A DNA stretch of 64,000 bases from Desulfosudis oleivorans Hxd3 (GTDB taxonomy: Bacteria > Desulfobacterota > Desulfobacteria > Desulfobacterales > Desulfosudaceae): assembly GCF_000018405.1 (NCBI RefSeq), contig NC_009943.1, positions 3,785,001 through 3,849,000 of the forward strand, given 5' to 3'. Of this stretch, positions 47,362 to 53,812 are shown piece by piece. Position numbers and translations under genes: made by a program. Under the pieces are notes generated by a model, which did not search any database, was not told the DNA's origin, and worked only from the letters and a program-made list of their open reading frames with translations. Numbering within the stretch: position 1 is the stretch's first letter; each line of letters starts with the position of its first letter.

Positions 47362-47760
47362 TTATCCGCTTCGGCCCAGGGTAAGGGCCATAAACCCGCC
47401 GAAGCCGACACACCATGCGTTGATCAAGCCGTTGGTGACCAGTTCAACCGGGGAGGCGGCATAGATGCCGTTCTGAAGGTTGAAGGAAAAATCCAGCAGG
47501 CCCAGAAAGATCAGGCCCCCGGCGCAGACAAGGGAAAGAGACCGGCCCCCGGCTTTACCTGCAAGGAGCAGGCACCCGGCCACAACCAGGCCCACCGCAA
47601 GTACGCTGTCAGGAAAAGGAAAGGCGTGCTCGTAGGCAAAGTAGCATTCCGGCGGGTTTTGAGGGGCCAGGCCGATGGTGAAAAAGGCGGCCCAGAACAG
47701 CAGAATGCCGATGCCGGTGGCAACTTGCAGCAGGGCTGTGGCCCGGCCCCGCCTATTCAC
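47362..47760 (-). CDS. small integral membrane protein, last gene of the kdn operon
   Basis: A 132-residue protein with four hydrophobic segments (about 8-30, 48-66, 73-92 and 104-128) and few charged residues. The family is not recognised. It overlaps the end of the giant GlmS-like gene by 8 nt, so it is probably co-translated with it. A role in presenting or exporting the product of the kdnAB/GlmS-like pathway is conceivable but is only inferred from position. Confidence 0.75.
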   Translation of the reverse strand: MNRRGRATALLQVATGIGILLFWAAFFTIGLAPQNPPECYFAYEHAFPFPDSVLAVGLVVAGCLLLAGKAGGRSLSLVCAGGLIFLGLLDFSFNLQNGIYAASPVELVTNGLINAWCVGFGGFMALTLGRSG

Positions 47761-50700
47761 TGTTTTTCTCCACTGCCGTCACAATGGATTCGGCGATCTT
47801 TTCCGCGGATTTGCCGAACAGGTCCTGGATGTCCACCTGTTCAAGAAAACTGTCCTGCCACACCACGCTGCTCTCCTGGACAATGTTCTTGATGCGCTCG
47901 GCCTTGCCGCCCAGGGCCTTTTTCTTTTCAAACAGGGTGGCCTCTTTTCTGAACCCGATGTTGAGCAGCAGAATGAACCGGATCATGCCGCCCCGGGCCG
48001 GAGAAGCCGACAGCACCGGGATCACAACGATATGGCGGTCGTCCTTGCGGCCCTTGCCGATATAGACGTTGCCCTCCCGCACAATGATCTTCTTGGTGCC
48101 CTTGAGCCGTTTGTCGGACTCCACCCGGGACGGTATCTCGGCCAGAACCCCGGTCTTTTTGATAATGGCGATGGTGGTCTCGTCCGTGGGCTCGCCCAGC
48201 AGGTTCAAGTGGTCCACCTTGTAAAGAATGGCGCCCTTGATTTCCGATACAATGAGCTGAACGTTTCGAAGCACCACGATATTGGTGTTGGTGAGCTGGG
48301 AGATATGCAGATCAAAGCCGGCCAGGGTTTCAAACAGAATGCCCTCCATGGTCTCTTTTGTCCGGCTGGTGCCCACGGTCACGGTTTTGGCCTGGTGCTT
48401 GATGGCGTCCACGGGCCGGGCCATGTGGTTGATGGAGCGGCCCAGGTATTCAAACAGGGTGTCGATCATGTTGGGGGCCGTGCCTTTTTTGCCGAAGTCC
48501 AGTTCAAAATCGGAAAAGGGCAGCCGGCCGGACAGGTACTTGAGCAGCAGGGCCAGGTCCGAAGCCAGGGAGATGGCCGCCGGACAGTCGGCGTCATGCC
48601 GCCGGGACCGGAACACGGTGTAAAACCGGGCGATTTTTTCACGGAACCCGTTTTCAAGCAGAATTTCAAAAAGGTCCAGTCCCTTCTGCATGTAAGCGGT
48701 AATGTCGCCACGCACTGTTTCCCGGAATTCGTGAAGCAGCCGGGCCCCTTTGTTAATGGCCAGGGCCGCGTAGTATCCCCACAGGTGGCCGGCAAAGGTG
48801 TTGACAATGGGGCCGAAGTGTTCGGCCACCTGGGGCACGGGAATCACGGCCTCGGCATAGGGGGCAAACCGTTCTTCTCCCTCGTCGGTGATGACGATGG
48901 GCACGGCCTTGTGGGCTTTGAAAATCGCGGTGTCCTTGACGATGTCCTCCAGGACCCGGGAACGGGACCCGGCCGCGCACACGATGATCAGGGGCTCGGC
49001 GGAAAGGTCGATATGCTTCTTGTCCTCCACGTAGTCCGAGGAGATGGTCTTGTAGCACAGTTCGCTGAGCTTGATCCGGATTTCATCGGCCGCCGCCTTG
49101 TTGGGGCCGCTGCCCACCACGGCCCAGTAGGTCCGGGCCGAGGCCAGCCGGTCGGCGCAGGCGGAGATGGCATCCCGGCGGGTGAAGATCCGCCGCAGGC
49201 AGGCGGGCAGCCGCAGCATCTGTTTGATCTCGCTGGTGATAAACTCACCGTCCCTGGCGCCCCGAATGCGGGCCAGGGCAAGTCCCAGCAGCGCCCCGGC
49301 CACCACCTGGGAGTAGAAGGCCTTGGTGGAGGCCACCGACATCTCGATGTCCCGGCCGGTGCTGGTGTAGATTACGCCGTCCACCTTGAAGGTGATATCC
49401 GAATCCCGGCGGTTGACAATGGCCAGAGTGTGGGCCCCCCGTTTTTTTACCATGTCCACGGCCCGGTTGGTGTCGGTAGTGGTGCCGGACTGGCTGATGG
49501 CGCACACCAGGGTATCGGCCAGGGTGTCCGTGCCGGCATGTTCCATCATGTCCAGGCCGCTGAGTTCCGACGCCTTCAGCGCCCGCACCCCCATGGAGGG
49601 ATCGGCAAGGTAGTACTCCAGGATACCGGCGCAGGCCAGGGCCGCCACCCCCGCTGTTCCCTGGCCGATAAAGAAAATGCGGCGGATCGTGCCGTCGGCC
49701 ATGGCCCGGCACAGGGCCGGCGGCAGGCTGGCCTTCTCCAGGGCGACTTCCAGGCCCTGGCCGCCATCCACGGTTTTCCAGCGGTTGTAAAGGGTCTTTT
49801 CAATGGCCGCCGGGGCCTCGGAGATCTCTTTTAAAAAATAGTGGGAATAGCCCTGGCGGTCCACGTCCCTGGAGGTGATGTCGGTGGTCAGGGCCTGGTG
49901 GGCTACGACGGCCACCGGGGTGCCGTCGTAGCACAGGGTCTTTACGCCGCCGACACCACCGCTTCCGGCCCCGTCCAGGATCACGATCTGGCCGCTGCCG
50001 GCCGTGCCCGAGCCGTTGGCGTTCATTTTGACAAAATCGGCGGTCTCTTCCACGATACCGTAAAGCTCGGAGGAGACAATATAGTGGTCCGGCGCCAGGC
50101 CCAGAAACAGGGCCTGGCCGCTGCCCTTCTGGGCAAAAAACATTTTACCCGGCGCCAGGCTGGTCTGCATGGAGATGGCGTGGGAGCCCTTGAAATCGTT
50201 TACCGCCAGGCGAAAGGCGGATTCAATGTCATGCCCCTGTTCCAGGTGGACCTGAACGCGCAGGGCGATGATCTTGGTGTCGGTGGTGATCTCTTCGGGA
50301 ACCGGGTTGTTTGATGATTCGTATTCCGCCTTGAGCTCCTGGAAGTTGTCGATGTCACCGTTGAGGCAGACCTGGATAACCGGATGGTCCGGCGGTTCCC
50401 GGTCCGTGGTCCGGCTGTCCTGGGGGTGGCAGTTGGCTTCGGTGATGGTGCCCACCGATGCCCACCGGGTGTGGGCCGACAGGGTGCAGTGGCGCACAGG
50501 GCTCTCCAGCAGGCGCCAGAAGAGGGAGTCTCCCTGAATCTGCTCCCGCAGAAACCGCACATTGTCGCCCAGGCTGCCAATTTCCGCGGCCACCTTGTAG
50601 ACAAAGGCAAGGCAGACCGGCGCTTTCAGGCCGGTACGGGAAAGGGCGACAGAGCGGTTTGAAAGTATGCGAGGGTTGGTCCGCTGCGCAAACTCTTTGT

Positions 50701-51325
50701 CAAGGCCGGCCTGGGCAAGGGAAGCGGAAAACCGGTCAAACGCCGGGGCATCCAGAACCGCCATGACGGAGATGCCGGCCGAGTCCCGGCCCCGCACCTC
50801 CAGCCGGTCCAGGCTGTTAAACGTGGTGTTGATTTTTCTGACAAGGCAGGCGGCGGAAAAAGAAAGGTTCCGGCCCCCGGCAAGGGCACCGACTTTTTTT
50901 ACGTTGTCGCACACCTCGGTTTCCAGGCACCAGCAGATGTCCCGAAGCGTTTCCAGGCGGTCAAAAGCCGCGGCAGCGACAGCGGCTTCCATTTGACCGG
51001 CCTGCCGGTCCATGGCATCGGCTTCGGCGTCGATCAGCCCCCGAAACCCTATTCCCAGGTCGCACACCGCCTTTGCGGCGTCGGCATGGGCATAAAGATG
51101 GAAAAAAGCGGCGTCGGTTTTCAGGTCACGGGCGGCTTTTGCCAGGGCGTCACAAACGGCGTCGCCGCCCAGGTAACGGTCCGCTGAAAAGCCGCCGGCT
51201 TCGATCATTCGGTCCAGCGTGGTTTCCCGCACCCGGTCGACCATGTCCTGAAGGACCGATACGTCAACAACCGGCGCCGGTCCGGCCCCGTTTTGAAACG
51301 GAACAATGGCGACAATGCCGCACAT
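47753..51325 (-). CDS. giant GlmS-like protein (glutamine amidotransferase + two SIS domains + insertions)
   Basis: A 1190-residue protein, about twice the length of GlmS. Cys2 is the Ntn nucleophile. GlmS-type motifs follow in order: RGRDSAG (178-184, displaced by ~150 inserted residues), HTRWAS (285-290), NGDIDN (322-327), HYFLKEISEAP (about 495-505), SIS1 with FIGQGTAG (552-559) and SQSGTTTDT (611-619), and SIS2 with VGSGPNKAAADEI (737-749). Glu755, His771 and Lys980 in QAKTVTVG stand where GlmS has its isomerase residues. About 110 residues are inserted within SIS2, and about 205 unfamiliar residues follow 985. It probably transfers an amide nitrogen to a sugar phosphate. It lies 24 nt after kdnB. 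Confidence 0.85.
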   Translation of the reverse strand: MCGIVAIVPFQNGAGPAPVVDVSVLQDMVDRVRETTLDRMIEAGGFSADRYLGGDAVCDALAKAARDLKTDAAFFHLYAHADAAKAVCDLGIGFRGLIDAEADAMDRQAGQMEAAVAAAAFDRLETLRDICWCLETEVCDNVKKVGALAGGRNLSFSAACLVRKINTTFNSLDRLEVRGRDSAGISVMAVLDAPAFDRFSASLAQAGLDKEFAQRTNPRILSNRSVALSRTGLKAPVCLAFVYKVAAEIGSLGDNVRFLREQIQGDSLFWRLLESPVRHCTLSAHTRWASVGTITEANCHPQDSRTTDREPPDHPVIQVCLNGDIDNFQELKAEYESSNNPVPEEITTDTKIIALRVQVHLEQGHDIESAFRLAVNDFKGSHAISMQTSLAPGKMFFAQKGSGQALFLGLAPDHYIVSSELYGIVEETADFVKMNANGSGTAGSGQIVILDGAGSGGVGGVKTLCYDGTPVAVVAHQALTTDITSRDVDRQGYSHYFLKEISEAPAAIEKTLYNRWKTVDGGQGLEVALEKASLPPALCRAMADGTIRRIFFIGQGTAGVAALACAGILEYYLADPSMGVRALKASELSGLDMMEHAGTDTLADTLVCAISQSGTTTDTNRAVDMVKKRGAHTLAIVNRRDSDITFKVDGVIYTSTGRDIEMSVASTKAFYSQVVAGALLGLALARIRGARDGEFITSEIKQMLRLPACLRRIFTRRDAISACADRLASARTYWAVVGSGPNKAAADEIRIKLSELCYKTISSDYVEDKKHIDLSAEPLIIVCAAGSRSRVLEDIVKDTAIFKAHKAVPIVITDEGEERFAPYAEAVIPVPQVAEHFGPIVNTFAGHLWGYYAALAINKGARLLHEFRETVRGDITAYMQKGLDLFEILLENGFREKIARFYTVFRSRRHDADCPAAISLASDLALLLKYLSGRLPFSDFELDFGKKGTAPNMIDTLFEYLGRSINHMARPVDAIKHQAKTVTVGTSRTKETMEGILFETLAGFDLHISQLTNTNIVVLRNVQLIVSEIKGAILYKVDHLNLLGEPTDETTIAIIKKTGVLAEIPSRVESDKRLKGTKKIIVREGNVYIGKGRKDDRHIVVIPVLSASPARGGMIRFILLLNIGFRKEATLFEKKKALGGKAERIKNIVQESSVVWQDSFLEQVDIQDLFGKSAEKIAESIVTAVEKNSE

Positions 51326-51349: not shown

Positions 51350-52414
<1,065 letters not shown>

Positions 52415-52421
52415 TCACCTG

Positions 52422-53609
52422 TTACTTTGAAAAGAGGGTTCTTATTTTTTCAATCCTGTCGGCCAGCTGGTCCGGGCTCCAGGACAGCTTGATCTGCATG
52501 GAGATGCACCGGGACATGATGGTGTCGGAACGGGGCATGTCCACCGTTGAATAGTCGGGAAAGTTATCGGCCAGGGAGGCCGGCACCCGGGCCGCTGCCA
52601 CCATCTTTTTCAGGTGGTGCCACTGGCGGATGTAGTGCCAGTTGTTGGCATACCAGTAGAAACAGCCGTCCACGCCGGCATCGGCCAGGTCTTTGGCCGC
52701 CTGCCGGGTCTGTGCTTCATCGGGCAGGAAAAAGGAGAGAAAGGTGGCTGAGTCGCCTGCCGGGTCGGGAATATGCCGGAAGGAGATTTTTGTAAATTCG
52801 GCCATGGCCGATTTGATCGCATTTTTGTTGGCCCGCTGGACGGCAAGAATATGGTCCAGCTTGCGCAGCTGGGCCACGCCCACGGCGGCGTTGAGCTCGC
52901 TGATGCGGTAGTTGGCGCCCAGCACGATATGGTCCTCCTTGCCCCGGTCGTTGCCGATGTGGTCATGGCCGTGGTCGGCATAGGCGTCGGCCTTCACGTA
53001 GCAGTCCCGGTCGTCGGTGATCATGCCGCCGCCCTCTCCGCAGGTGATGGTTTTGACCGGGTCAAAAGAGAAACACCCGGCTTTTCCGAACCGGCCCAGG
53101 CTTTTGCCGCCGAAGGTGGCGCCGATGGACTGGCAGGCATCTTCGAGCAGGACCAGCCCTTTTCGGTCGCACAACTCCTTGAGCGCGTCGATTTGCGCCA
53201 TGCTGCCGCACATGTGTACCGGCATCACCGCCTTTGTGCGGGGGGTGATGGCCTTTTCAACGGCCTCCGGGTCCAGGCAGAGGGTCTCGTCGATCTCCGC
53301 GAACACCGGAATGGCCCCGGCATTGAGCACCGCCTCGAAGGAGGCCACAAAGGTGAAGGGCGGTATGATCACTTCATCACCGGCGCCCACGCCGCAGGCG
53401 GCCATGGCCACGGAAAGGGCCGCGGTGCCGCTGGAGCAGAGCAGGGCAAACCCGGCGCCGGTGCGCTCACACAGCTCCTTTTCAAAGGTTTTCGCCTTCC
53501 AGTGACCGTTTCGGGCCGCGTCAAAGCCGTACCGGAACAGCACGCCGGTGGACAGCACGTCGTTTACCTCTTTCCTCTCCTCGTCGCCGAAAATTTCAAA
53601 TCCGGGCAT
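52422..53609 (-). CDS. kdnA: DegT/DnrJ/EryC1 aminotransferase, Kdo8N transaminase KdnA-like
   Basis: A 395-residue PLP-dependent sugar aminotransferase. The phosphate-binding CSSGTAAL (about 58-65), LLEDACQSIGATFGG (about 154-168) and the lysine in GCFSFDPVKTITCGEGGG, which holds PLP, are conserved. Next to a KdnB-like oxidase it is predicted to convert 8-oxo-Kdo to Kdo8N with glutamate as donor. AAGGAG lies before the ATG. Element E2 fills the gap to metG upstream, so the operon promoter, if separate from metG, must lie within or beside that element. Confidence 0.85.
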   Translation of the reverse strand: MPGFEIFGDEERKEVNDVLSTGVLFRYGFDAARNGHWKAKTFEKELCERTGAGFALLCSSGTAALSVAMAACGVGAGDEVIIPPFTFVASFEAVLNAGAIPVFAEIDETLCLDPEAVEKAITPRTKAVMPVHMCGSMAQIDALKELCDRKGLVLLEDACQSIGATFGGKSLGRFGKAGCFSFDPVKTITCGEGGGMITDDRDCYVKADAYADHGHDHIGNDRGKEDHIVLGANYRISELNAAVGVAQLRKLDHILAVQRANKNAIKSAMAEFTKISFRHIPDPAGDSATFLSFFLPDEAQTRQAAKDLADAGVDGCFYWYANNWHYIRQWHHLKKMVAAARVPASLADNFPDYSTVDMPRSDTIMSRCISMQIKLSWSPDQLADRIEKIRTLFSK

Positions 53610-53631
53610 TTTGTTCTCCTTGTATCTTATT

Positions 53632-53812
53632 TAGTTTCCATCCATAAATGGCCTTTTTCCGCAATCTCTGCGTCAAACTGCGGGCTTCCTTGTGCGGCGT
53701 ACAACAGTACGCCTCCGCGTCAGCCCTTGTTTTCCTTGATCTTGCGAAAAAATTCTCATTTCTGGATTGGAAACACCACATGGTGTCATCCATGTTACAT
53801 GGCTGGACACTA
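53632..53812. repeat. 181-bp MITE-like element E2
   Basis: Same length and ends as E1, with about four differences. A 12-nt palindromic core reads CACCACATGGTG here and CACCATGTGGTG in E1, exact reverse complements. Its right terminal TA supplies part of the metG stop codon TAG. It separates metG from kdnA. Confidence 0.92.

Follow-up and report, generated by a model that had tools for sequence, protein, structure and literature searches.

A double-length GlmS with a predicted PAS/GAF-like C-terminal domain is the probable glucosamine-6-phosphate synthase of Desulfosudis oleivorans Hxd3

The stretch of DNA analysed in this work (hereafter the window; 64,000 nucleotides of the Desulfosudis oleivorans Hxd3 genome) carries a gene for a GlmS-like protein that, as the initial annotation had noted, is twice the usual GlmS length (Table 1). 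The protein opens with MCGIVAIV, and its gene starts just beyond the end of the upstream gene with AAGAGAGGGGAGCCTTC-ATG, a purine-rich stretch that resembles a ribosome-binding site. The two genes directly upstream are kdnB and kdnA, whose enzymes turn Kdo into 8-amino-Kdo and were described from Shewanella. Together they provide for the synthesis of Kdo8N, a lipopolysaccharide sugar (KdnB: PMC5125639). An open reading frame of 719 aa (47675-49834, plus strand) runs antisense to the GlmS gene; it matches no family, was rejected as a real gene and most probably arises as a side effect of high-GC coding.

Table 1. Features of the long GlmS gene, its neighbourhood and related loci
Feature	Position	Strand	Basis or remark
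Long GlmS gene	47753..51325	-	1190 residues + stop; ORF, Pfam, NCBIfam, genome search
Cys2, putative catalytic nucleophile, straight after Met1; no leader in the window lineage	51320..51322	-	
Insert 1, residues 12-162 (151 aa), predicted all-helical	50840..51292	-	alignment + model; Pfam: none
Insert 2, about 63 aa within residues 189-259	50549..50761	-	alignment
Glutaminase core, GATase_6, residues 281-419	50068..50485	-	Pfam match
SIS1, residues 548-680	49286..49684	-	Pfam match
SIS2 region, about residues 717-856, with Lys752, Glu755, His771	48758..49177	-	alignment + model
Insert 3, residues 857-971, predicted helical	48413..48757	-	alignment + model
GlmS C-tail, residues 972-985, with putative Schiff-base Lys980	48371..48412	-	alignment
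C-terminal domain, residues 986-1190 (205 aa), predicted PAS/GAF-like	47756..48370	-	models; no sequence match
kdnB (Kdo 8-oxidase)	51350..52411	-	PDB 5k8c, E 7e-157
kdnA (Kdo8N transaminase)	52422..53609	-	PDB 5k8b, E 2e-166
Transpeptidase (PBP) gene, ~460 aa, in relatives	L006 3855-5249; L013 6405-7784		between metG and kdnA/GlmS
Split GlmU candidates	L159 2078-3361; L160 901-1746	-; +	uridyltransferase-type / hexapeptide acyltransferase-type, the latter beside glmM
NagB / NagB-like loci in order genomes lacking GlmS	L166 (G043:C6:1-5000); L168 (G022:C13:45000-49500)		

In its catalytic parts, the long protein closely resembles GlmS/GFAT (TIGR01135; 1jxa, 6svm), with a glutaminase and a two-SIS half that share its fold and have its catalytic residues in matching order. 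Judged from a full-length AlphaFold2 model built from 61 relatives (mean pLDDT 84.4, pTM 0.73), this GlmS core is complete, because the model can be superposed on E. coli GlmS (1jxa_A; Z 41.0, 595 of 608 residues, VIA-align) and equally on human GFAT-1 (Z 41.1, VIA-align); pLDDT is low in stretches around His771 and Lys980. Pfam recognises GATase_6 and one SIS domain and no others. The NCBIfam glmS model TIGR01135 matches far beyond chance (239 bits, E 8e-71) but below its equivalog cut-off of 418 bits (231 bits in the genome search), and the core is 26-31% identical over ~605 positions to ten canonical GlmS of the same phylum. The glutamine-site residues R73, N98, G99 and D123 of GlmS correspond here to R287, N322, G323 and D349, and the isomerase residues K485, E488, H504 and K603 to K752, E755, H771 and K980. 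C2, R287, N322, G323, D349, Q612, S613, T616 and S666 are invariant in a 61-sequence family alignment, and so are the four isomerase residues; this confirms the GlmS order of Cys2, Glu755, His771 and Lys980 that had been read from the sequence at the outset. The phosphate loop of SIS1 is also kept, with SQSGTT and VASTK as mostly invariant motifs. At the same time, the long-form family carries its own substitutions. At sites that are invariant in canonical GlmS, it has Gln or His in place of Cys300, Ser in place of Lys487, Lys in place of Glu124 and, almost throughout, Val in place of His77; further changes are Ala for Ser303 and, again in nearly all members, Ser for Thr76. The GlmS-type core and residues support the earlier assignment to the glutamine-dependent sugar-amination enzymes.

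Whereas GlmS ends at the C-tail (AKSVTVE) after about 610 residues, the long form passes beyond it by 205 further residues, and this C-terminal domain together with the insertions doubles the protein. Three extra segments of about 150, 110 and 205 residues had been recognised initially. All of them exist, but a fourth (insert 2) had been missed, the limits of the first are corrected from residues 20-170 to those in Table 1, and the one of ~110 residues, previously placed within SIS2, surrounds the last helix, between the final SIS2 strand and the C-tail that bears Lys980. The view that these segments fall outside described families held up: a Pfam search at E up to 5 returned one chance match (0.07) and nothing else, with no PAS or GAF model matching the C-terminal domain at E <= 5, and a PDB sequence search with the profile of this domain gave nothing significant (best 0.64).

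Structure prediction is more telling for the C-terminal domain. Modelled alone (pLDDT 91.5), it comprises five strands, with helices between strands 2 and 3 and at both ends, and this predicted order of elements would fit that of PAS domains (five-stranded antiparallel sheet, helices between strands 2 and 3). The best Foldseek matches are LOV (PAS) proteins at 0.004, none reaching E <= 0.001. With VIA-align, the top match and the single one with a Z over 8 comes from the mycobacterial large glutamate dehydrogenase, whose segment 171-361 reaches Z 9.1 (rmsd 4.9 over 167 aligned residues); the next row has a Z of 6.7, and GAF, PAS and CACHE domains follow. The dehydrogenase, too, is an enzyme of nitrogen metabolism that sensor-type domains have made larger, although identity over the aligned part is 13% and its catalytic core is unrelated, with the domain attached at the opposite end. 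With moderate confidence, we thus predict a PAS/GAF-like fold, which suggests a possible sensor role. The prediction would fit the new regulator imagined in the initial annotation, whose other option, a second active site, found no support. Indeed, a highly conserved basic cluster around residues 1066-1097 could be taken for catalytic, but the C-terminal domain matches no enzyme family and no enzyme fold, and we consider a second active site there highly improbable. A weightier alternative is a glucosamine-6-phosphate synthase with purely structural extras, serving oligomer contacts or stability and sensing no ligand. Inserts 1 and 3 are predicted to be helical, a frequent feature of oligomer interfaces, sequence searches reveal no known sensor domain, and the C-terminal domain gives a fold match of moderate quality. 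Yet conservation of this domain is strong (69% mean column identity, with many invariant charged and glycine residues), and the structures that resemble it best are sensor domains of the PAS/GAF type. We regard purely structural extras as possible though on balance doubtful, while a regulatory function of the C-terminal domain, as predicted from the models, appears to us an evenly poised proposition.

In most bacteria, GlmS supplies the first committed amino-sugar precursor for peptidoglycan and lipid A. The genome of the window (one contig of 3,944,167 bases, 99.99% complete) contains no second glmS: the next best match is PurF, and the two remaining matches of the glmS search are weak and glutaminase-only. 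NagB (glucosamine-6-phosphate deaminase), which in the biosynthetic direction is an alternative source of glucosamine-6-phosphate (GlcN-6-P), although it is a smaller and unrelated protein that uses free ammonia, was searched for in this genome and not found. GlmM is present (532 bits). GlmU is apparently split into an NTP-transferase-type protein of 281 aa and a hexapeptide-repeat protein of 427 aa adjoining glmM; a full-length GlmU above the cut-off was not found in four related genomes either. Given the lack of another glmS and of nagB, the presence of glmM and the order-wide replacement of canonical GlmS by the long form, the long GlmS is very probably the housekeeping GlcN-6-P synthase of the organism in an enlarged form. 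On the simplest reading, each genome keeps one main source of GlcN-6-P, which here would be the long GlmS. The initial annotation had hinted instead at a special enzyme beside a normal GlmS. This finds no support in the complete genome, where the lack of any other glmS is the very situation that it had itself equated with the housekeeping enzyme.

The replacement is visible at the scale of the whole order, where the long form was found in 91 of 96 genomes, canonical GlmS in three and both in none. A sample of 395 genomes of the phylum was scored by a match to the C-terminal-domain profile for the long form and by a score above the GlmS cut-off for the canonical one; 48 genomes have the former, 311 the latter, one has both and 37 have neither at the thresholds used. 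The two forms exclude each other (Fisher p 2e-36, without correction for relatedness), a value that overstates independence because both track phylogeny. In long-form genomes, the long GlmS occupies by replacement the same genomic role as GlmS/GFAT. Within a single genus (g26), one genome has canonical GlmS (G086) and two have the long form (G025 and G454). The only genome found with both (G274; loci L134 and L125) may owe them to recent transfer or contamination. Two genomes of the order have neither GlmS: in G022, alone among the 96, NagB scores above the cut-off, and in G043 a NagB-like gene adjoins glmM, so that NagB or a NagB-like gene is likely a third route to GlcN-6-P in these two. Some long-form genomes, G095 and G065 among them, likewise contain NagB-like genes that score below the cut-off. 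A contig search for the long form returned only this group among the 80 loci listed, GlmS-like matches in plasmid records all have less than 60% identity with none covering 80% of the query, and viral contigs contained no relative. The order, made up of sulfate-reducer-type bacteria, appears as a whole to produce with a double-size GlmS the first amino-sugar building block of its cell wall and outer membrane.

The genes around the long GlmS are in part devoted to envelope synthesis, in keeping with a role as GlcN-6-P synthase. More than half of the longer contigs of relatives have holB, ricT and metG farther upstream, and about 20 have kdnA/kdnB. The two relatives that were checked carry a penicillin-binding transpeptidase gene after metG; the matching position in the window is a gap (53610-53809) too short for such a gene. 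Because kdnA/kdnB often adjoin the long GlmS in the order, amino-Kdo is suggested to occur in the lipopolysaccharide of these bacteria. The same proximity, the score below the equivalog cut-off and the substitution of Cys300 and Ser303, close to the sugar site, throughout the family could also indicate that the enzyme aminates another ketose phosphate, e.g. for a special lipopolysaccharide sugar, with GlcN-6-P obtained from elsewhere. A different ketose substrate is conceivable because G274 has both forms and 37 of the 395 phylum genomes have neither. However, the window's genome has GlmM yet no other GlmS or NagB, long and canonical GlmS are mutually exclusive across the phylum, the phosphate loop and all isomerase residues are retained, and kdnA/kdnB are missing at many long-GlmS loci and make their own amino group. 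We consequently find another substrate unlikely and retain fructose-6-phosphate as the probable one.

A further peculiarity concerns the N-terminus. In most relatives, the codon ahead of the catalytic Cys is not a start and the frame runs on to an ATG ~40-70 codons upstream, a leader that is not known from canonical GlmS. Its end, immediately ahead of the Cys, is conserved (roughly [VI]Y[FW]G[RK]...VP..[SA]I[VI][FL][FL]P....L-x), with Pro at -8 in 66/66 sequences, Gly at -23 in 57/66 and a variable residue at -1 (Cys in 32/66). Third codon positions hold similar shares of the base changes in the leader (51%) and in the start of the mature protein (52%); this codon pattern and the invariant residues rule out an untranslated upstream sequence. 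A lipoprotein signal was likewise discarded on inspection, as there is no lipobox and residue -1 varies. The leader is found in distant families as well. Among 86 long forms placed on a FastTree tree, 75 have the leader and 11 start with Met-Cys, a pattern that needs three changes. Both main branches are populated by leader-bearing forms, a distribution most simply read as loss of the leader in about three lineages, one of them probably the family of the window's genome, whose own protein begins with Met-Cys.

Class II (Ntn) glutaminases need a free N-terminal Cys, and for this reason the leaders of the relatives are expected to be removed. A propeptide is not known to us from any GlmS, and none was found in the literature, within a search confined to open-licence papers. 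A precedent exists in PurF, as many GPRATases have an N-terminal propeptide that is removed autocatalytically (PMC7056826). By analogy, we infer a similar proenzyme processing for the long GlmS of most relatives, which shares with PurF the class II glutaminase and a Cys behind a leader to be removed. The two enzymes differ in their second domain, and the long-GlmS leader is conserved in sequence and missing in the window's protein. The PurF of the window's genome (L161 1966-3486, plus strand) has an apparent short leader, MNEPERPREA-CGIFGI, if that ATG is the start, and seems to be a processed amidotransferase of the known type.

Taken as a GlcN-6-P synthase, the long GlmS would work as follows. 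Its N-terminal Cys, after removal of Met, would hydrolyse glutamine, and the ammonia released would move to the two-SIS isomerase half. There, Lys980 would form a Schiff base with fructose-6-phosphate, while Glu755, His771 and Lys752 would carry out ring opening and isomerisation to GlcN-6-P, which would then feed GlmM and the split GlmU. The C-terminal domain continues directly from the active-site C-tail, and together with the helical inserts it would most likely make up a layer for regulation or assembly that works through this tail. In most relatives, the enzyme would be made with a leader that is cut off to free the Cys, a step no longer needed in the window lineage if the leader was lost there.

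To conclude, our search of open-licence papers found nothing relevant on an enlarged GlmS or on GlmS in these bacteria, and the combination of an enlarged architecture, a predicted PAS/GAF-like domain and the leader of the relatives is, as far as we found, an undescribed GlmS variant. We propose tentatively, and as slightly less than an even bet, that a distinct proenzyme GlmS family with a PAS-like C-terminal sensor displaced canonical GlmS in a large order and in several further families of the phylum, giving post-translational and allosteric control of the first amino-sugar step towards cell wall and lipid A, and that some lineages, including that of the window, later lost the leader. Besides, the long form would explain why model-based annotation of these genomes lacks an equivalog-level glmS. 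Its replacement of canonical GlmS across environmentally important anaerobes offers a natural test of how this step is regulated.
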